DNA of 36,473 bases, from the IMG/VR virus record IMGVR_UViG_3300032084_000655, positions 1 to 36,473 of that record; one strand, written 5' to 3'. Both the position numbers and the translations under genes were made by a program. Shown piece by piece: positions 4 to 36,047 of the stretch; positions within the stretch are counted from its first letter, which is position 1; each line of letters begins with the position of its first letter. The notes below the pieces were generated by a model. It was not told the origin of the DNA. It was given only the letters and a program-made list of their open reading frames with translations, and did no database searches. The stretch is from a virus.

Positions 4-888
4 TTACCCTTCTAGGTTTGGTATAGACCCATCAAACACCACAATACCTAGAGTAGTGCTCTTGGAACCTGACTCGTTCTTAACAGTAAAGACTGTTCCT
101 TGGAATCCATTTCTAACCCAGGTAGTATCCCCATCAAAAATGAAATACCTTTCGTAATTTGCTTCAGTGGGGGTTCCCTCTATTAAACCTATTTGATTAG
201 TTGGAACATTTCCAAAGCTAGGGAATCCTACTGTAGCTAGTCCTCCTAGAACAACCTCACTATTAGCATCTCCGAATCCAACAGTAGAGCCTACATCGGT
301 TTTAGTAGCTAGGTCTAGATCAGGAATATCAAAAGCTTCATTAGATGAGAACTCTAAAGAAGGAGTTAGCTCTGTCCCTATGAATGTAAGATCATTAACA
401 GACTGTATATCATTCCACTCCTTATTCTCTGGTTTGATATACATTCCAGGAGAACCTGTAATCATTATGATAAGATCGTATGGGTAAGAGAACCCTATAG
501 GTGCAGCTGGAGAAGTTAGTGGTGCCTGTACTGTTCCTCCGTCCTGTCTGATTTGAGCCTGACCATTACCAAATACATTTGGGCTGGCTTGTATTGTTTC
601 TGCGCCACAAGCTCTGGCATCGTGGAATCTGTGGACTGGGTATCCTCCTGCAAATATGTTTGTACTACCTTCAGACGGGCCTGATGCAACCCCTCCTAGA
701 CCCAAAGGATGAACCACTCCTGGAGGGGGTTTATACACTAAATCAGTTGAAGCTCCTTGAGGTCCTAGGGTTCCTGGCCCAGCTATGGCAATAGGCAATC
801 CATTTACTGTCACTGTATCATAAACAGCAGTGGTTATGGCTCCCCCTCCGTGATCTGAGGTATCTCCTTGTCTGGCTATCTTAGGCAT
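4..888 (-). CDS. PAAR-domain spike-tip protein with C-terminal extension
   Basis: This 294-residue protein begins like a PAAR-repeat protein (MPKIARQGD), with the later signature STNIFAGGYPVHRFHDARA and CGAETIQASPNVFGNG inside about the first 110 residues. PAAR proteins form the sharp cone that caps the trimeric spike of contractile tails and type VI secretion systems and helps pierce the outer membrane. Residues ~120-294 are an extension rich in Gly, Thr, Phe and acidic residues with no family I recognise. It could be a cargo or a structural collar. The start codon overlaps the stop of the upstream cysteine-rich gene by one base (TAATG), which implies translational coupling. It is the last gene of the leftward operon in this window, about 20 kb from the gp5-like spike it would cap. 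Family assignment is firm; the role of the extension is unknown. Confidence 0.88.
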   Translation of the reverse strand: MPKIARQGDTSDHGGGAITTAVYDTVTVNGLPIAIAGPGTLGPQGASTDLVYKPPPGVVHPLGLGGVASGPSEGSTNIFAGGYPVHRFHDARACGAETIQASPNVFGNGQAQIRQDGGTVQAPLTSPAAPIGFSYPYDLIIMITGSPGMYIKPENKEWNDIQSVNDLTFIGTELTPSLEFSSNEAFDIPDLDLATKTDVGSTVGFGDANSEVVLGGLATVGFPSFGNVPTNQIGLIEGTPTEANYERYFIFDGDTTWVRNGFQGTVFTVKNESGSKSTTLGIVVFDGSIPNLEG

Positions 889-3800
889 TAGGGTATTGGC
901 TCTGGTTCTTCGGATTCAGGATCTATATCCAGTCGCTTAATACTAATGGTTGGTATTACATAATCTCTAATGTCATCAATATCTAGCTTGGGGACCTCAG
1001 AAACCTTAGGATATCTTGACGCTACTGTTGGGTTTTCTGCGAACTTACCCAGGAACAGTTTGGACTTTACATCCTCCCAATCCTTAAACTCAGTAAGGAG
1101 TAGGGCTTTTCTTTCAAAAGGAGTTAGAGACTGATAGATACTAGCCCATGAAACCGTATCACCTTTCTTGTTAACAAACTCGGTTCCTCCTGTCTGTAGA
1201 TCACTCATGATCTTAAACAGCTTCTTTCCTGGTAGCTCTCTACGAGGAAGGGGTTCTTCATCTGTTTTATAAGGGTGTATGGCTCCTTTAACATTGTCTT
1301 TTTTGAATCTATATGCAGACTGCTCATTAGTAGGAACATCTCCTACCGCTCCAACACCATAGCCCGTGGCTCTTTCTAGAAGAGGGTGACTAAGAGAAGT
1401 CTTATGCTCAGAAGGTTTTGGGTTGAGTCTGAATATAATCTCTCTTTCGTTGAACTTCGTCTGATACGATCTAGATCTACCAAACATTAGATCATCTCGG
1501 TCAGTAGGAACGATGCCTATATGCCATGGAATTCTTCTTGGGAATATAGGAAGATTATCATAACCTTGGAATACATCTAAGCTGAAATCTTCAAACTCTA
1601 ACAAGGCTTCACCTTTTGCTTCTAAGTGATCGAATAGTGGATCTTCATGATCGACATAGAATTGCATATAAGGGAACGGTTTGTGCTTAACCCACTCGTT
1701 AATCTGCTCCTCATCTTCCATCAATTCAAAAGTTGCCTGAGTATGTCTTACTAAAGCACTTCTTCTAGGTTGATCTTCTAGAGTCTCAGGTAATAACTTC
1801 ATAATGTACACATCAGATCTAGCTGTTGAAGTATCATAGGTTTCTTCGATCAATCTAACCTCAGCGGAATCTACGGTCATGCGAACCTCATAAGGCTCAT
1901 TTAGTTTGTACATTATCTTTGAAAGGTCATCGTAATTAGTTATCAGAGCCTTGTCTTTGTCTGAAGCTATTTCAAAGGTGGCAGCACTAGTTGGATACCT
2001 GTCTCCATCATTAATATAAGTAATGTGTCCAGTCTGATCTGCTTCGTACAAAGTAATACTGTCATCACTAGAAACAGAAACATCTTGGACTGTACCGTCT
2101 GCTTTTATAACCTCTAGTCTCTTATTAACATCGGGAGCTATAACCTTCCATAATCTCATCTGCTCCTTCTCATCATCGTTAGCGTACTTTCTATGGTCTA
2201 GCTCCCTTCCCACATTCACAGCGAAGTTGATAGCGTCCGCTTCGTTACCTGTTGAGTATACTCTAGCTTTGATATCTTCTTCTCGTTGACAGTCCTCAAG
2301 TAGTCTTATGATAAAATCAGTTCCTACTTTATCTAACCTATTCGTTATGATAAGTTCCCTGATGTAAATAAGTATCTCTTTCTTTAAATCAGTTCCGTCA
2401 GGATACCTAGCATTTTCAAGAAGCTTCTTTATATTAAAGTTCAAGCTTCTCTCTATGTTTATAAGAGGAAGACTTCCATAGGGAAGATCCGAGAATGGAA
2501 GCCTGCCCTGGTTCATCTCATGGACGGACTTAATGTAAAGATGTACGGTGTCTGCGAAGAGGTCACTAGGTAGGTCACCTCTGTTTGAAGGAAGGAATTC
2601 ATACGCCTTAGGGTCTCTGTACTTTCTGTTGCTGACAGTAGGATCAAATACCGCCTCCCTATCATTAAATGCGTACTCCCTTCTTACCTTACTGCCATCA
2701 GGGTTGAATGTAAAGTATACTGTAGGATCGTCCTGTTGACCTCCAAAGTTTATTCCTGTAGCATCTACATCCAAACCTCCTCCAGTAAGATCTACCCCCT
2801 TACTACTTGATCCGAAGCTACCGTCAGAACCTATAGGTGTAGTGTTACTATCGCTACAGTAGCTATTACATTGGTTCTCTACTGCATAGTACCAAAGCTC
2901 CTCAGATGTTCCTGGAGGAGTATACCCGAATTGCCCAGTAGTAGGACATGCCTCAAAAGGAAGCGAGTTCAAGTATATGTAGAACTTTACACATGGTAAG
3001 TTCTCACCTAAGCATCTCCATACTTCGCACGATTCCTGACTAACTGTGGGAGGATCAACATCGCTATTAATCGTAGATGTTCTTGGGGAAGTTTTTCCAG
3101 GATCGGAATCGTAATAATCTCTACACAGAAGATCACATCTACTTGGGTTGAAGAAGTAGGGGGTATCCTGGTATGCGAACACTCTATTCGAGGTTGATGG
3201 TGGACATACAGAATAGTTAGATCCCGTTGCTTGGTTTATCTGAGATAGTCTAAGTTCAGCTTGATCGCAAGGTATTCCGTTTGGTCCACAAGTATAAACA
3301 TCACAATAAACAGGACCCTGTGCATCACCTAAGGATTGATCATCACGAACCCCTATAACTATTGGATCTGTAATGATATCATAATCTCCTGCATCAACAT
3401 CGAAGCACTTAATAGTGCATCTTTGCTGACTCCAATAGAGCTTCTCTCCATTGAAAGTGACTGTTTTTCTAGATTGTGGAGATAGACACCCTGTCAAATT
3501 GGCACCTTGAAGGTTAAGATCTGAGATAGGTATAGACAAGGGTTCGCAGAAGCCTAAGGCACATCTATAAAGATCACAGTTGGCAAGGACACCTCCACCA
3601 GGATCAGTCTCAAAACCTCCTGTAGCATCAACTCCGACAACACCGTCACCACATTGCGTAGTGTTGTTACATCTTTGTTTATTTTTAAAGAAGGTTATTC
3701 CATTTGAATTAAAGCTAGGTGGAAGCTGATCGCATGTTTGATATATGCCTCCGTTTATAGAGGATATCAGTCTGTTAAACTGTTCGCAATCTTGTCCGTC

Positions 3801-5960
3801 AATGCAGGCGTATACTTGACATACTACACTTCCGTTATCATCTAGTCCCGTACCTGTAGGAGGGCCAGCGGTTATGCAGTCATTATTACAGTTTGAATCT
3901 GTATAATACTTAGCCCCGTTGTATATGATCTCACCACCTAAAGCATCGTCAATGTAACTACAAGACACAATGCCTAGTTGTAAAGGTGTTTTAGCTGTTG
4001 ATAAGCACTGAGAGTTTACACACCTGAAGAGGTTACAGAAATCATCTAAGACTCCTCCTTGACCTTCATCAAAATCAAAGTCTATTCCTGTGGCATCAAT
4101 AGGATCACAAACAGCATCACATACTAGCTTTTCTTTATAGTAAAGATTTTGTCCTATGGCAATTGTAGTAGGTAGGGAATCACAGGTAGGATAGATAGCC
4201 GAGTTCCACAGAAGATCTATCTCATTGCATTCTCCTTCTACCTGATCGCAGAGATACATTGGACACGATATGTCAGGAAGTATGTCTACATTATCAGGGC
4301 TTGCACATATGTTATCACAGGTATTTTTAAACTTGTAATATGTCTGTCCTTGAGAAAGGAACAGGTTTGGTATGGTATCACAACTGGTATGTGACCCAGG
4401 TATATCTAGAATGTTTAGATTAACTAAACCACAAGGCTGTCCTACTGGAGCGCATCTATAAACTGGGCAGTAAGTTCCTGGATCAACTCCTGTTGTGGTG
4501 GGGTCTATGCCCTCACAGAAGTTATTGCACTGTGTTAGGTTCTTAAAGGTAAGCTGACCGTTTAGATCAAAGCTTCCTGGAAGGCTTTGGCAGTCTGATC
4601 CTGTGGAGGGTACATCGCTTCTAGGGAATGTTACTGGCAAACAAGATCCTAAGGATTCCTTGCACTGATACCCTGTACAGATTTGTTCACAAGAATCATT
4701 GCAATCACTAGAACCGTAATAAGTCTCTCCACCTTGAACAACAAAAGCTCCAGCAGGAGGACAGTCTATATTGTTAGGTTGGAATTGAGCGGGTAAACAG
4801 TTACCTTCAACGCACTTGAAAGCGTCACATGGACAGTTATTAAGGCACTGAGCGTTAGTGGTGTAATAACCATACTGAGCGGCCACCTGATTTATAAGTG
4901 TGCAAGTGGCCTGTTGAGGGTTGTTTAGGTTAAACAGTATGGCCCAGTCAGCAGCAGTTTTATACTCAGCATCACAGTCATAGTTACCCATGCACTTGTA
5001 TAGTCTACACAGTTGCTGAGAAGGTGTTAATGGACCTCCTGGAGTTATAGGGCCACCGCCTCCACCTCCACCGCCTCCACCAATGCAGATATCATCACAA
5101 ACATCTTTGTTTATGTACACCCCAGGTATTACCTGAGCACCCGCTGAACCTGTAGAAGTAGGACAATCATTTCCTGCCCATCCACCTTGTTGGAGGAGAG
5201 CCAAAGACATATTTGCTAGGAAGCATGGAGTGTTTGGAATCTCGCATAGGTATACAGGGCATAGCTTATCACGATCATCTCCAGGAGGACCTACGACAGG
5301 AGGATTTCCACAACACTTACCTCCAGTAGGGCCACCTAGGTTTTTACACTTCGCATTAGATCTCCACAACCCTCCTGCTTCTTGTGGTCCATTCTGATCC
5401 CAGAACTCGTTGCAATCTTTGTAGCAGTTTGATTGCACTGCTCCACATTTAGGAATATCGTATGGGATAGGCTCTAAATCGCAAGTATGAATACCACAAG
5501 ACTGGTTTGGGTTATTGCATGACCACCCGTTGCAGTTTATATTTCCGCAGCAAGACTCACAAGCATTTTGGTCTGAGAATAGTTGCTGTCCTTGCAACCC
5601 TACTAAAGCGGCTACACAATTAGCACCAGCGTCCGTAGAAGGATTACCTCCAGTATCACACGCTCCTACATTAGTTGCTAAATAAGGGCAGGCGTCTGGA
5701 TTGTTATACTCAGAAGGATCTATAAGACCTGGGCATGAAGTTATAATATCATTCCTGCTTACAGGGATAGTTATGCATCCTTCCCCAGCTTGAAGACAAG
5801 CTTTATAAGGACAGTCACCTGGATAAGTTACATCACCACGATCATCGTCATCGTCGTTACCACCACCAAATCCACCACAACAGTCAGGAGGGGGAGGTCC
5901 TACTGTAACATCTCCCCTTCCTGCAAGTTTAAGAATACAGTTGGTAAATACTGAAGCCAT
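888..5960 (-). CDS. Giant cysteine-module virion protein (1690 aa), probably tail appendage
   Basis: I do not recognise this family. Residues 1-50 are low complexity (Pro run, Gly-rich, five Asp in a row). Residues ~50-1035 hold tandem modules of 60-100 residues. Their shape is C-x2-[YFW]-x-C, a third Cys after 3-8 residues, a fourth after 15-30, an aromatic pair, then C-x2-C (one C-x3/4-C variant). Eleven are clear from C234 onward; two diverged ones precede them. A ten-glycine run separates two modules, and linkers repeatedly carry a DATG motif. Residues ~1078-1690 form a separate, almost cysteine-free domain with mixed alpha/beta character and many charged residues. The gene sits between two virion genes, three bases after one and overlapping the PAAR gene by one base, so a tail or baseplate-associated structural role is inferred. 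Each module could form three disulfides, but only after release from the reducing cytoplasm. There is no signal peptide. Confidence 0.8.
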   Translation of the reverse strand: MASVFTNCILKLAGRGDVTVGPPPPDCCGGFGGGNDDDDDRGDVTYPGDCPYKACLQAGEGCITIPVSRNDIITSCPGLIDPSEYNNPDACPYLATNVGACDTGGNPSTDAGANCVAALVGLQGQQLFSDQNACESCCGNINCNGWSCNNPNQSCGIHTCDLEPIPYDIPKCGAVQSNCYKDCNEFWDQNGPQEAGGLWRSNAKCKNLGGPTGGKCCGNPPVVGPPGDDRDKLCPVYLCEIPNTPCFLANMSLALLQQGGWAGNDCPTSTGSAGAQVIPGVYINKDVCDDICIGGGGGGGGGGPITPGGPLTPSQQLCRLYKCMGNYDCDAEYKTAADWAILFNLNNPQQATCTLINQVAAQYGYYTTNAQCLNNCPCDAFKCVEGNCLPAQFQPNNIDCPPAGAFVVQGGETYYGSSDCNDSCEQICTGYQCKESLGSCLPVTFPRSDVPSTGSDCQSLPGSFDLNGQLTFKNLTQCNNFCEGIDPTTTGVDPGTYCPVYRCAPVGQPCGLVNLNILDIPGSHTSCDTIPNLFLSQGQTYYKFKNTCDNICASPDNVDILPDISCPMYLCDQVEGECNEIDLLWNSAIYPTCDSLPTTIAIGQNLYYKEKLVCDAVCDPIDATGIDFDFDEGQGGVLDDFCNLFRCVNSQCLSTAKTPLQLGIVSCSYIDDALGGEIIYNGAKYYTDSNCNNDCITAGPPTGTGLDDNGSVVCQVYACIDGQDCEQFNRLISSINGGIYQTCDQLPPSFNSNGITFFKNKQRCNNTTQCGDGVVGVDATGGFETDPGGGVLANCDLYRCALGFCEPLSIPISDLNLQGANLTGCLSPQSRKTVTFNGEKLYWSQQRCTIKCFDVDAGDYDIITDPIVIGVRDDQSLGDAQGPVYCDVYTCGPNGIPCDQAELRLSQINQATGSNYSVCPPSTSNRVFAYQDTPYFFNPSRCDLLCRDYYDSDPGKTSPRTSTINSDVDPPTVSQESCEVWRCLGENLPCVKFYIYLNSLPFEACPTTGQFGYTPPGTSEELWYYAVENQCNSYCSDSNTTPIGSDGSFGSSSKGVDLTGGGLDVDATGINFGGQQDDPTVYFTFNPDGSKVRREYAFNDREAVFDPTVSNRKYRDPKAYEFLPSNRGDLPSDLFADTVHLYIKSVHEMNQGRLPFSDLPYGSLPLINIERSLNFNIKKLLENARYPDGTDLKKEILIYIRELIITNRLDKVGTDFIIRLLEDCQREEDIKARVYSTGNEADAINFAVNVGRELDHRKYANDDEKEQMRLWKVIAPDVNKRLEVIKADGTVQDVSVSSDDSITLYEADQTGHITYINDGDRYPTSAATFEIASDKDKALITNYDDLSKIMYKLNEPYEVRMTVDSAEVRLIEETYDTSTARSDVYIMKLLPETLEDQPRRSALVRHTQATFELMEDEEQINEWVKHKPFPYMQFYVDHEDPLFDHLEAKGEALLEFEDFSLDVFQGYDNLPIFPRRIPWHIGIVPTDRDDLMFGRSRSYQTKFNEREIIFRLNPKPSEHKTSLSHPLLERATGYGVGAVGDVPTNEQSAYRFKKDNVKGAIHPYKTDEEPLPRRELPGKKLFKIMSDLQTGGTEFVNKKGDTVSWASIYQSLTPFERKALLLTEFKDWEDVKSKLFLGKFAENPTVASRYPKVSEVPKLDIDDIRDYVIPTISIKRLDIDPESEEPEPIP
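2856..5813 (-). repeat. Tandem six-cysteine protein modules
   Basis: This is the coding region for residues ~50-1035 of the 1690-aa protein. Clear module starts include CPVYLC, CRLYKC, CDAFKC, CTGYQC, CPVYRC, CPMYLC, CNLFRC, CQVYAC, CDLYRC, CDVYTC and CEVWRC. Each ends in a pair such as CNNFC, CDNIC, CNNDC or CNSYC. The modules are diverged from each other at DNA level, so this is an old protein repeat rather than a recent tandem duplication. Linkers vary from almost none to ~35 residues. Confidence 0.85.
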
Positions 5961-28782: not shown

Positions 28783-30339
28783 TCAACTACCTGCTAATTC
28801 TCCTGTAATCCTTCCAAACCTTTGCTCGCTTCCGTTTCTTCTTTGATCGTCTCTCATCTCTGTAAGTATTCTAGCGATCTCTCTACCTTCAGGATTCGAT
28901 CTACGGTTGATTAACGAAAGTTCTCCTATATTTGCTTCCATGAACTTTCTAGCGAACTCATTAAACCTAGTGTCTAGGCTAGGTCTTCTCATCCTATCAA
29001 GCTCTGCTCTTTTAGCTTCCTCTTCTTGAATTCTTAAAGAATCTTGAGCAGACTCATTTATATTCTCAAGATTAGAGAGGCTCATTTTTTGAAAGACTTG
29101 GAGCCCTGCTATACCACCGACGATACCGACTAATCCTAATGTTAGGGCACTAAATCCAGCAGCGTTAACAATGAAGGTAGCAGTGGCAATACCCGCTGCA
29201 ATACCTAAAGCTGTTAAGAGCCCAGCTAAACCTGCTCCAATAACAGCAGCGTTATCCTGTACGAATGCAGCTATTCTGGGAAGATATTCTGTAAAGATTA
29301 CTGAATTAGATAAAGCCTCGATAGCAATTGTTAATGTATTTAAGGTAGCAACTGCTATCTGATCTAAAGGACCTGTTATCCTAGCCTTTAGATCAGATAT
29401 ACTTTTATCAAAGGCGTCCGTTTGTTCTTTGAGTAGTTGCTGTTGAGGGTTTAATTTCTCAGCATTGTACAAAGCTTCTAGAAGCTGAACAAAATCTTGC
29501 CCGAATACATCATAAATAGCTTTTGCGTTTGCTAGTCCCTGTCCTTGAGTCTGATCAGCTAATGCTCTACCTTGATCAATTAATCTTTGTAGGGCTACCG
29601 ATGGATCTACTTGACCTCCTGCAATATCTTGCAGCCCTAAGGCAGCTAGTTTTTCAAAGTTGTTAGGATCGAATACCTTATCAACAAGACTCTGTACATT
29701 ACCTAATGCAGACTTAGGTAGTATCTTAGCAGCTTCAAGTAATATTCCTGAGGACTTTTGAAAGGTATCACCACCTAGAACAGCTAAGTTCAGATTGTTT
29801 GAAAGACTATCTAAAGATCCTACTAGACGATCAATTGAAATACCCTGCTCAATCGAGGTATCCAGAAGACTCTTGTTTAGCTTTGTAAGGTTCTTCTGAG
29901 AAACAATACCATTTCCTATAAGGTTCTCGTTTGTTTTAACAAGAGCCCCCACATCTTGTCCGAGGGTAGAAACCCTGCCCGCTAAATCTAACAATGCTTC
30001 ATTATTAGGATCAAGCCCTGCATCAATTAGCCTTGCTATGTTTTCATTAGCTGCTGCAAATCCTCCATCTAAACTTTGAAGCTGTGCGAAAGTAAGGTCA
30101 GTCGCGTTACTTAGAACCCTATTAGAGCTTATTAGAGACTGCTGTACTGGAATCATCCTTTGTATGGATGATGAAAGCCCAGCCATTGCTTTTGACAGAG
30201 CTTCAATCTGAAATAAGGTCTCAGTTCTTCTGTTTACCTGATCATCAGAAGCGTTAAGATCTGCTCTTCCATTAGGACCAACTCCTAGAGCGTTACTTAG
30301 CTGATTAAGGCCATCTACTACATCCTGTAAGTTTGCCAT
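28783..30339 (-). CDS. Tail tape measure protein
   Basis: This protein is 518 residues long from the ATG at 30339 (MANLQDVVDGLNQL). That start has a strong GGAGGA five bases upstream and is one base after the preceding stop; an earlier in-frame ATG (30375) lies inside the upstream gene. The chain is almost wholly helical. A Gln/Leu/Ser-rich N-terminal half carries heptad-like patterns. A hydrophobic Gly/Ala-rich region lies at ~343-415 (AVIGAGLAGLLTALGIAAG, TLGLVGIVGGIAGLQVF), as in tape measures that later enter or cross the host membrane. A basic, charged C-terminus follows. Using the usual ~0.15 nm per residue, the tail would be near 78 nm, somewhat shorter than T4 (gp29 has 590 residues). 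The position after the chaperone and before the hub genes fits. Confidence 0.78.
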   Translation of the reverse strand: MANLQDVVDGLNQLSNALGVGPNGRADLNASDDQVNRRTETLFQIEALSKAMAGLSSSIQRMIPVQQSLISSNRVLSNATDLTFAQLQSLDGGFAAANENIARLIDAGLDPNNEALLDLAGRVSTLGQDVGALVKTNENLIGNGIVSQKNLTKLNKSLLDTSIEQGISIDRLVGSLDSLSNNLNLAVLGGDTFQKSSGILLEAAKILPKSALGNVQSLVDKVFDPNNFEKLAALGLQDIAGGQVDPSVALQRLIDQGRALADQTQGQGLANAKAIYDVFGQDFVQLLEALYNAEKLNPQQQLLKEQTDAFDKSISDLKARITGPLDQIAVATLNTLTIAIEALSNSVIFTEYLPRIAAFVQDNAAVIGAGLAGLLTALGIAAGIATATFIVNAAGFSALTLGLVGIVGGIAGLQVFQKMSLSNLENINESAQDSLRIQEEEAKRAELDRMRRPSLDTRFNEFARKFMEANIGELSLINRRSNPEGREIARILTEMRDDQRRNGSEQRFGRITGELAGS

Positions 30340-30340
30340 A

Positions 30341-30838
30341 TTAATCCTCCAATGGTGTATCGAATTCAATATCAACAGACCTGAAATCTATCTTGTGGAT
30401 ATCGAATGCTCTGTTCTGAATAAAGGTCCTAAATCTCCTGGGTCCGAATAGAGAAGAGAATAGATTATTTACAACCCCCTTCCCGTAAGTTACAGACCTA
30501 TTCTTATATATTGCACCCAGAATAACTTTAAGGGTTTCAGGACTTGATGGCACAATAGAATAGGCTGCTACTAGCCTGTTCTTCGTAGATAAGTTTATAC
30601 CATAACCTGATGGCATCCTAGAAGTGCCTGATATGATAGCCAAATGCTCCGTGGTTTTAGCTGCATAGGGTTTTTCTGGATTCCTATACTTGAGGTACAC
30701 TAGATCTCCTACCTTTAATGAGGAGTTAGATAGTGTACTTCTACCTACGATCTTAGCCATCTGGACATCATCCTTCTCTCGATCTATACCAGAGAATAAC
30801 GCCTCCCTCAGGAATTTGTAGATTTGTTTTGAAATCAT
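30341..30838 (-). CDS. Unknown small protein encoded upstream of the tape measure
   Basis: This protein is 165 residues from MISKQIYKFLREALFSG. I do not recognise the family. The N-terminus is helical. A central KVGDLVYLKYRNP strand looks like an SH3-type barrel start, and the C-terminal part (FRTFIQNRAFDIHKIDFRSVD) is basic and aromatic. It sits directly upstream of the tape measure, separated by one base, so a tail-assembly or tail-completion role is possible. Neither candidate start has an ideal ribosome binding site. The ATG at 30838 has none. An internal ATG at 30763 (MAKIVGRS) has AAGGA ten bases upstream and would give 140 residues. I kept the longer form because residues 1-25 look like genuine protein. 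It is the first leftward gene after the interrupting plus-strand cassette, so it must have its own promoter or depend on read-through. Confidence 0.6.
   Translation of the reverse strand: MISKQIYKFLREALFSGIDREKDDVQMAKIVGRSTLSNSSLKVGDLVYLKYRNPEKPYAAKTTEHLAIISGTSRMPSGYGINLSTKNRLVAAYSIVPSSPETLKVILGAIYKNRSVTYGKGVVNNLFSSLFGPRRFRTFIQNRAFDIHKIDFRSVDIEFDTPLED
30345..30350 (-). promoter_or_regulatory. Strong Shine-Dalgarno GGAGGA deciding the tape measure start
   Basis: The minus strand reads GGAGGA five bases before ATG 30339, inside the last codons of the upstream gene. This is the best ribosome binding site seen in the window and excludes the longer start at 30375. Confidence 0.8.
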
Positions 30839-30879: not shown

Positions 30880-31170
30880 ATGAGGAATGCAGATATAGAA
30901 CTAATAGAGTTGTTAGACTTACTAGATTATACATTTAGTGATGATTTTGTAGAGAAATGGAGATATAGGTTCTCTACTAAGTTCATTAAGAATTTTCAAT
31001 ATAGAATACTTAAAAGCCTACAGGAAAAGAAACCTGTAAAAGAGAAGTCCCTATACCTTTACCTTACAAAGAAGTGTAAGTATGCTGAAGAACAGGTTGA
31101 TGATTTCTTTGAGGCTATTGACATAACGCTCTATTATCCGATGGTGATACCATGTACTGCGAAACGATAA
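30880..31170 (+). CDS. Small basic helical protein, first gene of the plus-strand cassette
   Basis: This 96-residue protein starts MRNADIELIELLDLLDY. It is predominantly helical and basic in the centre (FSTKFIKNFQYRILKSLQEKK) and ends YYPMVIPCTAKR. I do not recognise the family. The segment LYLTKKCKYAEEQVDDFFEA followed by YYPMV recalls the middle of T4 gp33 (late transcription co-activator) in length and pattern. However, the hydrophobic C-terminal clamp-binding tail of gp33 is absent, so that identity is only a possibility. The gene begins right after an AT-rich divergent spacer and has no Shine-Dalgarno; a TTG start 17 codons earlier is unlikely. Its end overlaps the nuclease gene by 19 bases, which suggests co-expression with DNA-processing genes. 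Confidence 0.6.
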   Translation: MRNADIELIELLDLLDYTFSDDFVEKWRYRFSTKFIKNFQYRILKSLQEKKPVKEKSLYLYLTKKCKYAEEQVDDFFEAIDITLYYPMVIPCTAKR

Positions 31171-31928
31171 GTAACTCGAAGCGTGAAACTTTCCGTCAGT
31201 GTAGGCTTAAGTATAAATATAACTATGTGAACCGTTACGAAGACACTGACCCAGGGAACACTGGCGCTCTCCACTTTGGATCCTTTATTCATGAGGTGTT
31301 TGAGCATTCCACTAACGCCACCTCCATTGACCAGCTTTGGACTAAGGCTAATGAAATAAAAGATAAGTATAAGTTCCCTGATAAGTATAACAAAGATATA
31401 GAGAAGTGCTTCAAGAACTTCCTTCGGTTCAACGCATCGCTGCCTAAGGAGTCTATTGTCGAGCATCACTTTACCGAGGAGATTGCTGATGGAATCAAAC
31501 ATGAGGGATATATTGACAGGATTATCAAAGCACCGACAGGAGATATTCTTGTGGTCGATTATAAGACATCAAGAAGAGAGAAAACCAAGTTCGAGCTATT
31601 CAATGATCCGCAAGGTAAATCTTATGTCTACGCAGCACACAGACTTACGGGAGTGCCTATTACAAAGATTACCTTCGCACACTACTACCCTCTTAGTAAC
31701 AATCTGGTCGCAGCTACCTATACAGAGGCTACCATTCGACAGCATATTAAGGCTGTGGTAGATGATGTATGGACCATCCGCAAATGCAAGAGCGATGACC
31801 TGTATCCCCAGAAGAATGATTTCTGCAACTGGTGTTCTTACAAATCCATCTGTCCACTCTATAATGACCCAGAGGTGGTCAAGGGACGCCTAGATGAGTG
31901 TAAGACAAGACCGAGACGCAAGAAATGA
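31152..31928 (+). CDS. Cas4/RecB-like PD-(D/E)XK exonuclease with Fe-S cluster
   Basis: This is a 258-residue protein. Nuclease motifs are His47 in GSFIHEVFEH, Asp122 in GYIDRI and Asp136/Lys138 in VVDYKTS, followed by the helix residues FELFNDPQGKSYVYA (the conserved Q/Y motif). Four cysteines are arranged as in Cas4 and AddB-type 4Fe-4S nucleases: Cys17 (FRQCRLKY), then Cys225, Cys228 and Cys234 (FCNWCSYKSIC). All the expected catalytic and cluster ligands are present, so the enzyme should be active on DNA ends. In phages such enzymes take part in recombination and replication or in degrading host DNA. No cas1, cas2 or CRISPR repeats are nearby, so a role in spacer acquisition is not indicated. 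The gene is followed by the primase gene with an ATGA overlap. Confidence 0.9.
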   Translation: MYCETISNSKRETFRQCRLKYKYNYVNRYEDTDPGNTGALHFGSFIHEVFEHSTNATSIDQLWTKANEIKDKYKFPDKYNKDIEKCFKNFLRFNASLPKESIVEHHFTEEIADGIKHEGYIDRIIKAPTGDILVVDYKTSRREKTKFELFNDPQGKSYVYAAHRLTGVPITKITFAHYYPLSNNLVAATYTEATIRQHIKAVVDDVWTIRKCKSDDLYPQKNDFCNWCSYKSICPLYNDPEVVKGRLDECKTRPRRKK

Positions 31929-32848
31929 TTAGAGAGTGGGTACAGCAGAATATCAAGGAAGGACGCTTACAGAGTGGTGGTCGTGAGTGGGTTTGTAACT
32001 CAGTCATCGACACCTCTGATTACAAGCGTCACATGTCCGTCAACCTTGATACTGGTCTGTGGCAGTGCTTCAAGTCTGGTGAGACTGGCAACTTCTACCA
32101 ACTTGTTTCCCTCGTTCGTGGCGTACCCTACCACCGTGGTAAGGAGATCTTCTACAGCTACTGCATTGAGAATGGTAAGCTTCCCGAAGAGTCCACCGCC
32201 CAGATTATCACACCAACCGTACAAAACTTAACACATGAAGAGTTCCAGCAGATCGAAGAGAACAGCACAGCAGATCGTTATGTCCGTAGTCGGAACCTTA
32301 ACCCTGCTCGCTTCTACTATGCTTCTAGTGGTAGATACGCAGGCCGACTCATTATCCCCTTTGAAGATGAGCACGGACTTTTCTACTTCACAGCCAGAGC
32401 CCTCGGAGATCAAACTCCAAAGTATCTCAACCCCCCAAGTGAGGCAGGTGTCAAGTCCTCCCATGTCCTCCTTCCCTTCGATGCAGACAGCACAGACCCT
32501 CTCTTCATCACAGAAGGTGCTATTGACGCTATCGCCCTCAAGGAATGCGGACTCAATGCTACTTGCACCAATGGTTGCTCCCCTTCCCTCATTCAACTAC
32601 GATATCTGCGTGACTATCGAGGTCCAATCGTCGTTGCCTACGACAATGACAGCGCGGGTAGAGAGGGATTAGAAAGGTTTGAGCGTCTACGCAAGCGTTG
32701 CTGTATGCCCACCTTCAACCATGTCTTCCCTCCTGATGGATACAAGGACTGGAATGAGGTGCTAATGGAAGGTGAGGCTATTACAGAAGCCTGCGCTAAG
32801 GAGTACAAGCCCTACGACTGGGCTAACATGGTCCTCAGCGGACTGTGA
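31925..32848 (+). CDS. DnaG-type toprim primase
   Basis: This is a 307-residue protein. Residues ~190-285 form a toprim domain: Glu197 in FITEGAIDAIAL, then VVAYDNDSAGREG with Asp240 and Asp242. The N-terminal ~90 residues resemble the CHC2 zinc-binding domain that reads template sequence: Cys24, His36, Cys48 in LWQCFKSGETGNFYQLVSL. Where the usual last ligand would be (C-x2-C) there is Ser51, so zinc binding is incomplete or uses another residue. Residues 95-190 contain FYYASSGRYAGRLIIPF and FTARALGD, typical of the primase core. No helicase domain is fused, so it would act with a separate replicative helicase. It overlaps the nuclease gene by four bases (ATGA). Codons appear more C-ending than in the flanking structural genes. 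The 3' end overlaps the opposing structural gene by 14 bases. Confidence 0.85.
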   Translation: MIREWVQQNIKEGRLQSGGREWVCNSVIDTSDYKRHMSVNLDTGLWQCFKSGETGNFYQLVSLVRGVPYHRGKEIFYSYCIENGKLPEESTAQIITPTVQNLTHEEFQQIEENSTADRYVRSRNLNPARFYYASSGRYAGRLIIPFEDEHGLFYFTARALGDQTPKYLNPPSEAGVKSSHVLLPFDADSTDPLFITEGAIDAIALKECGLNATCTNGCSPSLIQLRYLRDYRGPIVVAYDNDSAGREGLERFERLRKRCCMPTFNHVFPPDGYKDWNEVLMEGEAITEACAKEYKPYDWANMVLSGL

Positions 32849-33782
32849 AGTACATCATCGGTGAGATGAGTGTCTCACCTAAAACATTATACTTAGCCTC
32901 TACGGAGTAGGTCCCTTGGCCTGCTCCTAAATTTTGTATATCTCCACTTGTGAGAACGGAGGTATCAAAGGATAGTACCATGGTATTATCTGATGTAGTG
33001 GCAATTAGAGAAGAAGTATCTCCATACCCTGAAACCTCTACCCATGAGGGAAGGTTGCTGTCCTCGTTGTGTTTCTTGATTAGGAACTTGGGATCATCCA
33101 CTAGAGATTGAGTAAAGGTGTTTTTTATTGTTTGATCAATGTTCCTGTTCATAACATTGACCTCCGTAGTGACCTTAAGATCAATCACCTCTCCTAAGCG
33201 AACTTCGTTAGGTATTAGCTTGTTTTTTGTACGAACCATTATAGGTTCTGTAGTTACAACAAGGTTATCTTGGAAGAGTTCTACATTGTTGATAATTACC
33301 TGCCAATCTGAATCCTGTGTCATTTTGACAGTCCAGACCTCAATGTAATTACCTGCTCCACTGGCGGTGTTAAGTATGTAGTCTCCATTTATATCTTGAG
33401 ATCTAACACCTATTCGGCTCACACCGTCTAAAACCACACCAAACTGACCAGTGCCTAGCTTGAATATGGAACTAGTAGTAAGTCCTCCTGCTGCGTACTC
33501 AGCGGGGTCAAGGCAATCAGCAACAGTTCCTGCGGTTCCTGAAGTTGCCCATCTAAACTTTAGAGCGGCTCCTGATAAATAAGCCTCATCTACAACCTGA
33601 GAGCTTGCAACTAAAATACTGCTAGGAGAGGTGTTGGCTGCTCTGGTGTGTAGGGTTACTGCACTGATGTCGTAAGGATCTTTGTAAGCCCCATTAGATA
33701 TAAAATTAGCTCTCAGGAGGACCCTGCTTAGGTTTCCTGGGCGATTGTGTCGTTCAACTACCTCTACTCCGTTTAGCTTCAT
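32835..33782 (-). CDS. Unassigned beta-rich structural protein (315 aa)
   Basis: I do not recognise this family. The sequence is rich in Val, Thr, Ser and Asn with alternating strand patterns and no long helices. Examples are VTLHTRAANTSPSS, FKLGTGQFGVVLDG and an Ig-like C-terminal end, GTYSVEAKYNVLG then PMMYFTVR. It follows the tail-assembly chaperone, whose frameshifted extension overlaps its first 29 bases, so it is co-transcribed with the chaperone. In contractile phages this slot between chaperone and tape measure is normally empty, so this is an accessory tail or head-decoration candidate. Its 3' end overlaps the primase gene on the other strand by 14 bases. The AAATG start has no strong Shine-Dalgarno, and translation may depend on ribosomes arriving from the frameshifted chaperone. 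Confidence 0.6.
   Translation of the reverse strand: MKLNGVEVVERHNRPGNLSRVLLRANFISNGAYKDPYDISAVTLHTRAANTSPSSILVASSQVVDEAYLSGAALKFRWATSGTAGTVADCLDPAEYAAGGLTTSSIFKLGTGQFGVVLDGVSRIGVRSQDINGDYILNTASGAGNYIEVWTVKMTQDSDWQVIINNVELFQDNLVVTTEPIMVRTKNKLIPNEVRLGEVIDLKVTTEVNVMNRNIDQTIKNTFTQSLVDDPKFLIKKHNEDSNLPSWVEVSGYGDTSSLIATTSDNTMVLSFDTSVLTSGDIQNLGAGQGTYSVEAKYNVLGETLISPMMYFTVR
32860..32879. terminator. Stem-loop just downstream of the primase gene
   Basis: A perfect 7-bp stem, GGTGAGA and TCTCACC, with a 6-base loop lies 11 bases after the primase stop, inside the 3' coding end of the opposing gene. No T-run follows on the plus strand (TAAAACA), so it is not a canonical intrinsic terminator. It could weaken read-through into the opposing operon or protect the 3' end of the mRNA. 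Confidence 0.4.
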
Positions 33783-33953
33783 TTATGTATTCCTGTTCTG
33801 CCTTCTTTTCATTCATCAGGAACTCTATGAAGCTCATTCTTTCTAGCTGGGTCATGGCTTTCACATCCTGATATGTGAAATTACAGTGCTTTACAAGTAT
33901 ATAGGCTTGATTTAGCAGACCTTCTATATCTTTTCCGTCTACTAACTCGCTGT
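33754..33953 (-). CDS. Frameshift-only C-terminal extension of the tail-assembly chaperone
   Basis: In the -1 frame relative to the gp26-like gene an open frame of 66 codons runs from TAC (33954-33952) to TGA (33756-33754). It encodes a helical, charged segment: GKDIEGLLNQAYILVKH, then FTYQDVKAMTQLERMSFIEF and an EKKAEQEYINEAKR end. A stop (TGA, 33964-33962) precedes it in its own frame, and no ATG, GTG or TTG occurs before the mid-frame ATG. It therefore cannot be made whole except by frameshifting. The fused product would be 297 residues. This is the same logic as lambda G/GT and P2 E/E+E'. The segment resembles the T-type domains that recruit tail tube subunits to the tape measure. It fills an otherwise unexplained gap and overlaps the next gene by 29 bases. 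Confidence 0.82.
33912..33945 (-). other. Stimulatory stem-loop (possible pseudoknot) for frameshifting
   Basis: On the minus strand TTAGTAGAC (33945-33937) pairs with GTCTGCTAA (33920-33912): eight Watson-Crick pairs and one G-U, with a 16-base loop. It starts 8 bases after the slippery run, within the usual 5-9 base spacing. The loop contains ATATAG (33929-33924), which could pair with CTATAT downstream (33904-33899) as an H-type pseudoknot. That second stem is weak, with a single G-C pair. Confidence 0.7.
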
Positions 33954-34646
33954 AAAAAAATCACGGGTTAACGGTAGCGTAATAGGACCGTCGAATCCGC
34001 AGGAATCACACTGGATTCTCACCTCGTTGGTGATGCCATAATCAGCATTAGAAACTACAGAGATTATCTTGGTGATATCTCCAGCAGGGAGTCTCTTAAT
34101 AAACTTAGCGAAGACATCCTTTCTAGTCACATCTTCGATCTTGTTAACAAATCTCCAAAGGTTGTCGCAAAGTTTATCCGAGTCGGAAATGTAATCCTCA
34201 TCCTTTACGCAAGCAGGACGAAGAGTTATTTTTTTCTTGGTTATAGGTAAGACAACCTCCATCTCCTCTTCTTCTAGATACTTAACAGGAAGCTTACTTA
34301 TTTCAATGTTATAGTGCTTCTCGCTACCACAGCTAGGGCACCCGATAATAAACTTATAGGAATCACCGAAAGAGATCTCTCTAAGCTTGAATAGGCAGAA
34401 TACCTTATCAATAACAAGAAGCTCACCCAGATCCTCAACATCTGTGAGACACTTGCTTAGAAGCATTGAGATTACATCCTCGTTACCTTTACCACCTCGA
34501 AGCATTAGCTTCTCTTCCTCAAAGGTGATAGGCTTCATGGTAACCATTCTACCCGAAGGTAGTTTAACATGGATGCTTTCAGAAAGGGGGATGTCCTTTA
34601 GTAGATCGTCTACTAAATCATCCGCTGATTTTTTTTCATCTGACAT
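33942..34646 (-). CDS. Tail-assembly chaperone / gp26-family protein, unshifted form
   Basis: This 234-residue protein resembles the T4_baseplate (gp26-like) family. It has PITFEEEKLMLRGG at residues ~39-52, LLVIDKVFCLFKLREISFGD at ~76-95, and two Cys pairs, C103PSC106 and C213DSC216, that could bind zinc. T4 gp26 is a baseplate hub assembly factor, and similar proteins precede the tape measure in other phages. The frame-0 stop (TAG, 33944-33942) comes three codons after a run of seven T that lets some ribosomes shift to -1 and add 66 residues, so this is the short form of a two-product gene. The start has GGAG seven bases upstream (34657-34654). It is the first leftward gene after the divergent uvsW promoter region. 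Confidence 0.78.
   Translation of the reverse strand: MSDEKKSADDLVDDLLKDIPLSESIHVKLPSGRMVTMKPITFEEEKLMLRGGKGNEDVISMLLSKCLTDVEDLGELLVIDKVFCLFKLREISFGDSYKFIIGCPSCGSEKHYNIEISKLPVKYLEEEEMEVVLPITKKKITLRPACVKDEDYISDSDKLCDNLWRFVNKIEDVTRKDVFAKFIKRLPAGDITKIISVVSNADYGITNEVRIQCDSCGFDGPITLPLTRDFFTAS
33954..33960 (-). other. -1 ribosomal frameshift slippery heptamer T_TTT_TTT
   Basis: The minus strand in frame 0 reads CGT GAT TTT TTT ACA. Two Phe codons preceded by T allow both P- and A-site tRNAs to re-pair one base back (X_XXY_YYZ with all T). The next codon is then TAC in the -1 frame. Frame 0 ends three codons later. An 8-base spacer and a 9-bp stem follow. Confidence 0.8.
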
Positions 34647-34682: not shown

Positions 34683-36047
34683 ATGAAAATTGTGATTGGA
34701 ACACAAAAGTCCAAACTCAAGACTGATAATCCTAAGATCCTAAAGGCTCTCAGTGATTTATATAGCTTCAAAATCCCAGGTGCTGAGTTTACACCTGCCT
34801 ATAGGCGTAGACAATGGGACGGTAAGAAGCGTTTCTTTACCAGGGGAGGACAGTTTGGTACTGGTATGCTTCCTTCTATCCTGGCTGATCTAGAGAAGAT
34901 TGAGTGTGTTCCCGACTTGGAGTTCAAGAATGATGCACCTGAAACTGTGGGTATTAAATCTATTTCTCCTTTCACTTATTTTGATTATCAAGAAGAATCA
35001 ATCAAATACGCCCTAGAGAATCATCGCTGTATTATCAAAGCTCCTACGGGTGCAGGCAAAACTTTAATCATGGCGGGGATCGTCAAGTCCCTCATGGGCA
35101 AGAAGATGGTCATCCTCTTCAATGCTAAATCCCTCTTGAAGCAAACTTACGACTTCTTTGTGAACGAGTGTGGGTTTACTAATGTCGGTGTCTGCTTTGG
35201 TGAGGGTTATGAGGATGGTGAGATCATGCTTTGCACTGTCCAGAGCATTGAAAGAATTATCGACAATTATGTCACAGATGCCGAAGTTCTCATGGTTGAC
35301 GAGGTTCATGAGTTTTCCAATGGTGAGTTCACCGTAGCAGCTATTGAGAGCTTCCCTAACGCTCCTTACAGGTACGGTTTCACTGCCACAGTGCCGCAGG
35401 ATCCTATTCCTAGATGGACGCTCATATCGGCGTTTGGACCTATATATACATGTCGGACAACCCAAGATCTGATCGAGGATAATGTCCTGACCAAACCAAT
35501 CATACAAATGCTTCAAGTTCCTGAGTCAGAGGTGGATGATTCAGAGCTAGGATACCGAGGCGTGTATGAAGAACTTATCGTCAACAACGAAACTCGAAAC
35601 AACATGATAAAAGATATCGTAAACGATATCAGATCTAAACATGAACAAGCCAGAATTCTTATACTCGTCAGAGACCTTGAGCACGGTAGAATCCTTCAGG
35701 AGGGAATTGGAGGATCTTGCTATTTCCTTAGAGGTGAGGATGACATCAGCAGTAGGTATTCCACAATACGCAGCTTTACAGAGTGTGGAGACAACTCTAT
35801 CCTCATTGGAACTAAAATTCTCCAAACCGGAGTTAACATACGCGAAATCACACATTTCATCAATGCTAGAGGACTTAAAAGTCCGATTGCAACCATACAG
35901 GCACTCGGACGCTCTCTTCGTCGCCATGACAGTAAGGATGTCGTATTTGTCTATGATTTCATGGATACAGGAAAATATATTGCTGCCCACTCAGCTAAAC
36001 GACTTTCAACCTATGTAAGTGAAGGTCATGAGGTTCACAAGATATGA
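34683..36047 (+). CDS. uvsW: UvsW-type superfamily 2 DNA/RNA helicase
   Basis: This is a 454-residue protein. The N-terminal ~110 residues follow the T4 UvsW pre-domain: a short LSDLYSFKIPGAEFTPAYRRR region, then QWDGKKRFF, and a FDYQEESIKYAL Q-motif region. The helicase core has Walker A APTGAGKT (Lys126), DEVH at 206-209 in LMVDEVHEFS, GFTAT as motif III and IQALGRSLRRHDSK (from Gln406) as motif VI with its arginine fingers. T4 UvsW unwinds R-loops and branched intermediates, shuts off origin-dependent initiation and promotes replication-fork regression. The same role is inferred here. It is slightly shorter than T4 UvsW (~500 aa), with a short C-terminus. The gene overlaps the next small gene by four bases (ATGA). 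AAGG lies very close to the ATG, and a TATAATA only four bases upstream suggests a short or leaderless transcript. Confidence 0.92.
   Translation: MKIVIGTQKSKLKTDNPKILKALSDLYSFKIPGAEFTPAYRRRQWDGKKRFFTRGGQFGTGMLPSILADLEKIECVPDLEFKNDAPETVGIKSISPFTYFDYQEESIKYALENHRCIIKAPTGAGKTLIMAGIVKSLMGKKMVILFNAKSLLKQTYDFFVNECGFTNVGVCFGEGYEDGEIMLCTVQSIERIIDNYVTDAEVLMVDEVHEFSNGEFTVAAIESFPNAPYRYGFTATVPQDPIPRWTLISAFGPIYTCRTTQDLIEDNVLTKPIIQMLQVPESEVDDSELGYRGVYEELIVNNETRNNMIKDIVNDIRSKHEQARILILVRDLEHGRILQEGIGGSCYFLRGEDDISSRYSTIRSFTECGDNSILIGTKILQTGVNIREITHFINARGLKSPIATIQALGRSLRRHDSKDVVFVYDFMDTGKYIAAHSAKRLSTYVSEGHEVHKI

Follow-up and report, generated by a model that had tools for sequence, protein, structure and literature searches.

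The lambda gpG/gpGT pair is described by a working model with an abundant short form and a minority long form (PMC5009743), and in T4 both gp26 and gp51 have been counted among the hub assembly chaperones (PMC3004832). The study of Vladimirov, Gautam and Davidson (2022), as represented in PMC10885494, PMC12846349, PMC9603447 and PMC12859696, is prior art for the present work: it is cited for T4-like phages with separate short and fused genes (PMC10885494) and for −1 signals of the poly-T type in the chaperone genes of T4-like phages (PMC12846349). Going by these citations, both the link of gp26 and gp51 to the chaperones and the occurrence of T-run frameshift signals in T4-like chaperones are already in the literature, and the frameshift described here is therefore not a new kind of system. 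The less expected part is the variety of decoding at the junction, above all in the lineages with a +1/−2 extension. A further poly-T case is that of Pseudomonas phage Adele and the Vandenendeviridae, whose chaperone gene has a conserved −1 shift at GTTTTT and an extension that is usually misannotated (PMC12846349). These phages share with the locus described below the poly-T −1 shift and the misannotated extension, but they belong to another family.

We analyzed a stretch of viral DNA of 36,473 nucleotides (IMG/VR record IMGVR_UViG_3300032084_000655; hereafter the window) from a T4-like bacteriophage. In it, a gp26-family gene very probably encodes a gp26/gp51-type (PF12322) tail assembly chaperone of which −1 programmed ribosomal frameshifting gives two forms (Table 1). 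The short form matched PF12322 (T4_baseplate) at 71.7 bits, against a curated cutoff of 24.5, and phrog_150 (baseplate hub) at 2.9e-24. In frame 0 the gene ends with the codons CGT GAT TTT TTT ACA GCG AGT TAG, and the short form thus terminates in ...RDFFTAS. In the −1 frame, a TGA stands immediately 5′ of the slip site (CCG TGA TTT TTT TAC), and the frame is then open over 66 codons, from TAC at 33954 to TGA at 33756-33754; the predicted long form has 231 + 66 = 297 residues. The heptamer, 8-nt spacer, 9-bp stem, 16-nt loop and in-stem stop reported in the first-pass annotation of this DNA agree base for base with the minus strand, and the 66-codon −1 frame, with its stop just 5′ of the slip site and no usable early start, is confirmed in the sequence as well. 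In-phase T_TTT_TTN is rare in the window genes, with just 2 occurrences in 11,911 codons. Shifted frames that stay open for >120 nt do exist at other gene junctions of the window, because there the shifted frame is that of the following gene, which has a start of its own.

Table 1. Features of the chaperone locus and its surroundings (positions in the window; all on the minus strand)
Feature	Position	Strand	Basis
Short tail assembly chaperone (TAC-N, gp26 family), 234 aa, frame 0	33942..34646	-	PF12322, phrog_150, AlphaFold2 model, structural matches
T_TTT_TTT slippery heptamer, in phase with frame 0, 3 codons 5′ of the frame-0 stop	33954..33960	-	sequence and conservation
Frame-0 stop TAG, terminating the short form, inside the 5′ arm of the stem	33942..33944	-	sequence
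−1 extension, 66 codons + TGA, predicted C-terminal domain of the 297-aa long form (TAC-NC, gp51-like)	33754..33954	-	relatives, dN/dS, gp51 homology, model
9-bp stem + 16-nt loop, 8 nt 3′ of the slip site, possible lineage-specific stimulator	33912..33945	-	folding and relatives
CTATAT, proposed pseudoknot partner of loop ATATAG (33929-33924)	33899..33904	-	part of codons for conserved AYIL motif
315-aa conserved gene, start overlapping the extension end	32835..33782	-	syntenic in relatives
Candidate tape-measure-like protein	28783..30375	-	inferred from length, hydrophobic stretch and position

A closely similar arrangement is found in cyanophage (Kyanoviridae) loci such as those of P-SSM7 and P-SSM2, which have the same gene, a T_TTT_TTC slip site and a −1 extension. 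They differ from the window in that the slip site stands 1 codon before the stop instead of 3 and in that a large tail ORF directly downstream begins before the extension ends; gp51 is annotated in records of this type as a separate short ORF.

Relatives were collected with several queries. The window protein as a single IMG/VR query retrieved none, but the 66-aa extension as the lone query retrieved 9 IMG/VR loci, and in all 9 a gp26-like gene with a T-run 3 codons 5′ of its stop precedes the extension, which is in the −1 frame. The short-form profile and a cyanophage query yielded ∼100 more loci, and isolate records were added for breadth. From these we compared 55 non-redundant loci, the window included, that have a −1-frame extension. 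T_TTT_TTN is present in 53 of the 55, the window among them, as TTTTTTC (47 loci), TTTTTTT (5) or TTTTTTG (1), and it lies 1 codon (38 loci), 3 codons (13) or 0 codons (2) 5′ of the frame-0 stop; Phage C48C1 and Agrobacterium phage Atu_ph07 are two further records with the slip heptamer. Among 32 cyanophage sequences, both Phe codons of the slip site are invariant (TTT in 32/32 and TTC in 32/32), and other conserved Phe columns are mostly TTT/TTC mixtures. Since one further Phe column is also invariant, we take codon invariance as support and not as proof, and a test of codon choice gave a weak result, about 10^-2.4 over 7 deep clusters, after correction for relatedness.

The extension itself appears to be a translated domain. 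Its dN/dS is ≤0.19 in most measurable pairs and 0.44 to 0.46 in two distant pairs involving the window, and the remaining two frames of the same DNA contain several stops; as judged from these substitutions, the −1 frame is under purifying selection. In 28 of the 55 loci, among them the window, ATG, GTG and TTG are all absent from the extension frame between −13 and +24. The conserved heptamer and −1 frame, the purifying selection and the lack of starts together support, at the sequence level, the initial proposal of a −1 frameshift in a gp26-family tail chaperone with 234-aa and 297-aa forms.

We weighed three other explanations of the junction. The first is that the extension is a separate small gene, expressed by termination-reinitiation at the frame-0 stop and never fused. 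The two loci of the 55 that lack the heptamer, L122 (Vibrio K364) and L124 (a megaphage, LR756511), speak for such a mode, as in both an ATG overlaps the gp26 stop (TAATG), and their sequences are consistent with coupled translation in place of the frameshift. Several other loci carry the heptamer together with an ATG, and short separate ORFs have been called in the P-SSM2, Rhizobium I46 and Vibrio D482 records. Against a separate gene, conservation reaches into the N-terminal part of the extension even in the window and the 27 other loci that have no start codon there, the T-run is kept even in loci that have an ATG, and the stand-alone homologue, T4 gp51, has both domains in one chain. We regard this explanation as very unlikely. 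Because an ATG is present near the extension start in 19 of the 53 heptamer loci, an additional small reinitiated product is possible in those. The overlapping ATG in the two loci without a heptamer is also the pattern that would be expected if the frameshift were ancestral in the set and had been replaced there.

Even less probable is slippage of RNA polymerase on the T-run, with mRNAs longer or shorter by one base fusing the two frames. Homopolymer runs can cause transcriptional slippage, and the run in the window is a T7; however, in 48 of the 53 loci the run is limited to six T's (TTTTTTC or TTTTTTG), which is fewer than transcriptional slippage usually needs. Moreover, the run is always phased as X_XXY_YYZ with the stop within 0 to 3 codons, as tandem tRNA slippage predicts. 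A sequencing or assembly error in the homopolymer, or a decaying gene, can be set aside almost completely: homopolymers are error-prone, and one metagenomic relative (L103) has a frame-fusing junction two bases shorter, but 53 non-redundant loci share the out-of-frame junction, some of them in isolate genomes that were sequenced separately, and both frames are under purifying selection.

Programmed −1 frameshifting, the reading we retain, also bears on how the related genomes are annotated. The frameshift fusion is annotated in none of the related genome records examined. Public records instead give the extension as a short separate gene, named gp51 or hypothetical, that begins at an internal start codon (L004:3265-3360, L115:2723-2896, L116:2756-2896 and L118:2813-2956). 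The puzzling 31- to 60-aa "gp51" ORFs of cyanophage records would be accounted for as the C-terminal portion of a longer fusion. A simple rule, T_TTT_TTN 0 to 3 codons 5′ of the gp26 stop, could be used for annotation repair, and many records should be fixable with it.

We examined the RNA downstream of the slip site for a stimulatory structure. The arms of the stem in the window, TTAGTAGAC (33945-33937) and GTCTGCTAA (33920-33912), form 9 bp including one G.U pair, and the fold is only mildly better than that of shuffled sequences (z = −1.6 over 64 nt and −2.6 over 52 nt). When 52-nt segments starting 4 nt past the slip site were compared with control segments of the same genes, the mean z was −1.03 after the slip site versus −0.26 in controls, and the share with z ≤ −1.5 was 40% versus 16%. 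Good structures were found in the window and in L011, L012, L019, L020 and L022, with stems comparable to that of the window in L006, L012, L019 and L020. In the closest relatives (L015 to L018), the stem is weak or absent, and the downstream structure is therefore at best a lineage-variable accessory. Thus, of the elements compared among relatives, the heptamer (as T_TTT_TTN) and the −1 frame are kept, but the stem varies by lineage. A pseudoknot between the loop and the downstream CTATAT had also been suggested. The loop ATATAG could pair with CTATAT as described, but we rejected the pseudoknot, because CTATAT lies within the AYIL codons and relatives lack the matching loop, which leaves it without comparative support.

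The AlphaFold2 model of the short form, built from 32 sequences, had a pLDDT of 91.2 and a pTM of 0.85. Among 996 aligned PDB chains, the top three were YqbN (3klu, Z 6.5), Rbstp2171 (3fgx, Z 6.3) and HK97 gp13 (2ob9, Z 5.7), all of them phage tail assembly chaperones (PMC9603447). The matches span 85 to 89 residues, at residues 3 to 103 of the short form, and the next row had a Z of 4.1. These top values are all below 8, where Z alone can reflect merely a common arrangement of elements; chaperones in all of the first three places would nonetheless be hard to attribute to chance. Foldseek alone, run with the short-form model against the PDB, returned nothing significant, and a sequence-profile search of solved structures gave chance matches only for both domains. 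The C-terminal half of the modeled short form resembles zinc-ribbon proteins, a likeness that is consistent with the cysteine pairs CPSC and CDSC. The model of the 66-aa extension is helical (pLDDT 89.7); its fold search against the PDB was uninformative, and in BFVD a cyanophage gp51 leads, weakly (E 0.08). The gp26-type protein differs from the lambda proteins in being larger, with the extra zinc-ribbon-like part, and family searches found no sequence similarity between the two. The slip sequence of lambda G/GT is also different from T_TTT_TTT.

T4 gp26 and gp51 match PF12322 at 215.6 and 177.5 bits, respectively, the latter over residues 1 to 201, and a profile of the extension family matches gp51 at residues 200 to 246 and leaves gp26 unmatched. 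This C-terminal match scored 25 bits, compared with at most 14.8 for 20,000 shuffled versions of that segment; when the profile was run against 12 kb of T4, gp51 was the top ORF by a wide margin. The window extension alone matched phrog_634 weakly (E 0.031); 16 of its 24 aligned relatives matched this family, the best at 7.3e-31. By these profile comparisons, the extension and the C-terminus of T4 gp51 are homologous. Since gp51 thus combines a PF12322 domain with an extension-type C-terminus, it is built like the long form, as gp26 is built like the short form, and gp26 and gp51 correspond to lambda G and GT, respectively. The tie between gp26/gp51 and the G/GT system that had been put forward in the first-pass annotation is borne out by this homology and by the tail assembly chaperones at the top of the structural matches. 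Its description of T4 gp51 as encoded just after gp26 needs amending: the genes are neighbors, but they are divergent, with 26 on the minus and 51 on the plus strand, and gp51 is a separate full-length chaperone and not a downstream piece of 26. T4 therefore resembles the window in domain content, but it has two separate, divergently transcribed genes where the window has one gene whose −1 shift would give both products.

The G/GT frameshift would in this way extend to T4-related phages and their hub chaperones of the gp26 type, and the two-gene arrangement of T4 therefore looks derived, replacing a frameshift. We lean slightly toward a joint reading in which the gp26/gp51 junction is one homologous locus whose decoding has switched among T4-related phages, and in which T4 gp51 is the ancestral frameshifted long form copied into its own gene. 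The decoding modes in this reading would be a −1 shift on T_TTT_TTN (window clade, cyanophages and Straboviridae such as S13, Ci1 and PX29), a +1/−2 shift (SP-15, LIS04, GXN1, Mel-JY01 and two uncultured lineages), a stop-start overlap without a slip site (K364 and one megaphage) and divergent separation (T4).

Individual loci with other junctions were recorded as follows. In SP-15 (L002, 2477-3416), LIS04 (L003, 2489-3434), GXN1 (L123, 1980-2997) and Mel-JY01 (L128, 1351-2431), as well as in L127 and L034, a gp51-like extension occupies the +1 frame relative to gp26 (or, equivalently, the −2 frame). The extension frames of the +1 loci match a profile built without them, that of SP-15 only weakly. 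NCC_CGA_TTY is a candidate site common to SP-15, LIS04 and GXN1; the candidates are a T7 run in Mel-JY01 and TTT_TAA_C, which resembles the RF2 site, in L034. In L103 (2001-2894), a cyanophage-like metagenomic contig, the junction reads TCTTTTTGGTTAGG, 2 bases shorter than in relatives, and gives an in-frame 297-aa fusion, which could be a natural fusion without a short form or an assembly error.

We infer the slippage itself, its rate and the roles of the products in tail assembly, and picture them as follows. Most ribosomes would reach the TAG and produce the 234-aa short form. A minority would slip back one base on T_TTT_TTT, with both Phe tRNAs re-pairing with TTT, and would bypass the stop to produce the 297-aa form, whose C-terminal domain is predicted to be helical and spans 66 aa. 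The roles may parallel those of lambda G/GT, with the short form coating the tape measure protein and tube subunits or hub components being recruited by the long form; both would act on the tape measure and on the tail tube or hub while the tail is being built and would leave afterwards. In T4 the equivalent short and long forms come from two separate genes, 26 and 51, which are divergent.

The chaperone gene is on the same strand as the tape-measure candidate and upstream of it, but the 315-aa gene and two convergent genes lie between, and the chaperone gene is therefore not directly next to the candidate. The candidate itself has no significant family match, and the 315-aa gene has none in Pfam, PHROG or NCBIfam; a gene of 302 to 315 aa is present 3′ of the chaperone in the window-clade relatives L015, L017 and L010. 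By inspection, the two convergent genes (31152-32848, plus strand) are nuclease-like, with a Cys-rich C-terminus, and Toprim-like, and their arrangement is kept in L015 and L017 and partly in L010. On the other side, a gene for a UvsW-like helicase (34683-36047, plus strand; by inspection) is divergent from the gp26 gene and is kept in L015, L017 and L010; T4 uvsW is likewise a near neighbor of 25 and 26. We also note that the tail gene region of the window encodes a 1690-aa protein (888-5960, minus strand) with many spaced Cys-rich repeats.
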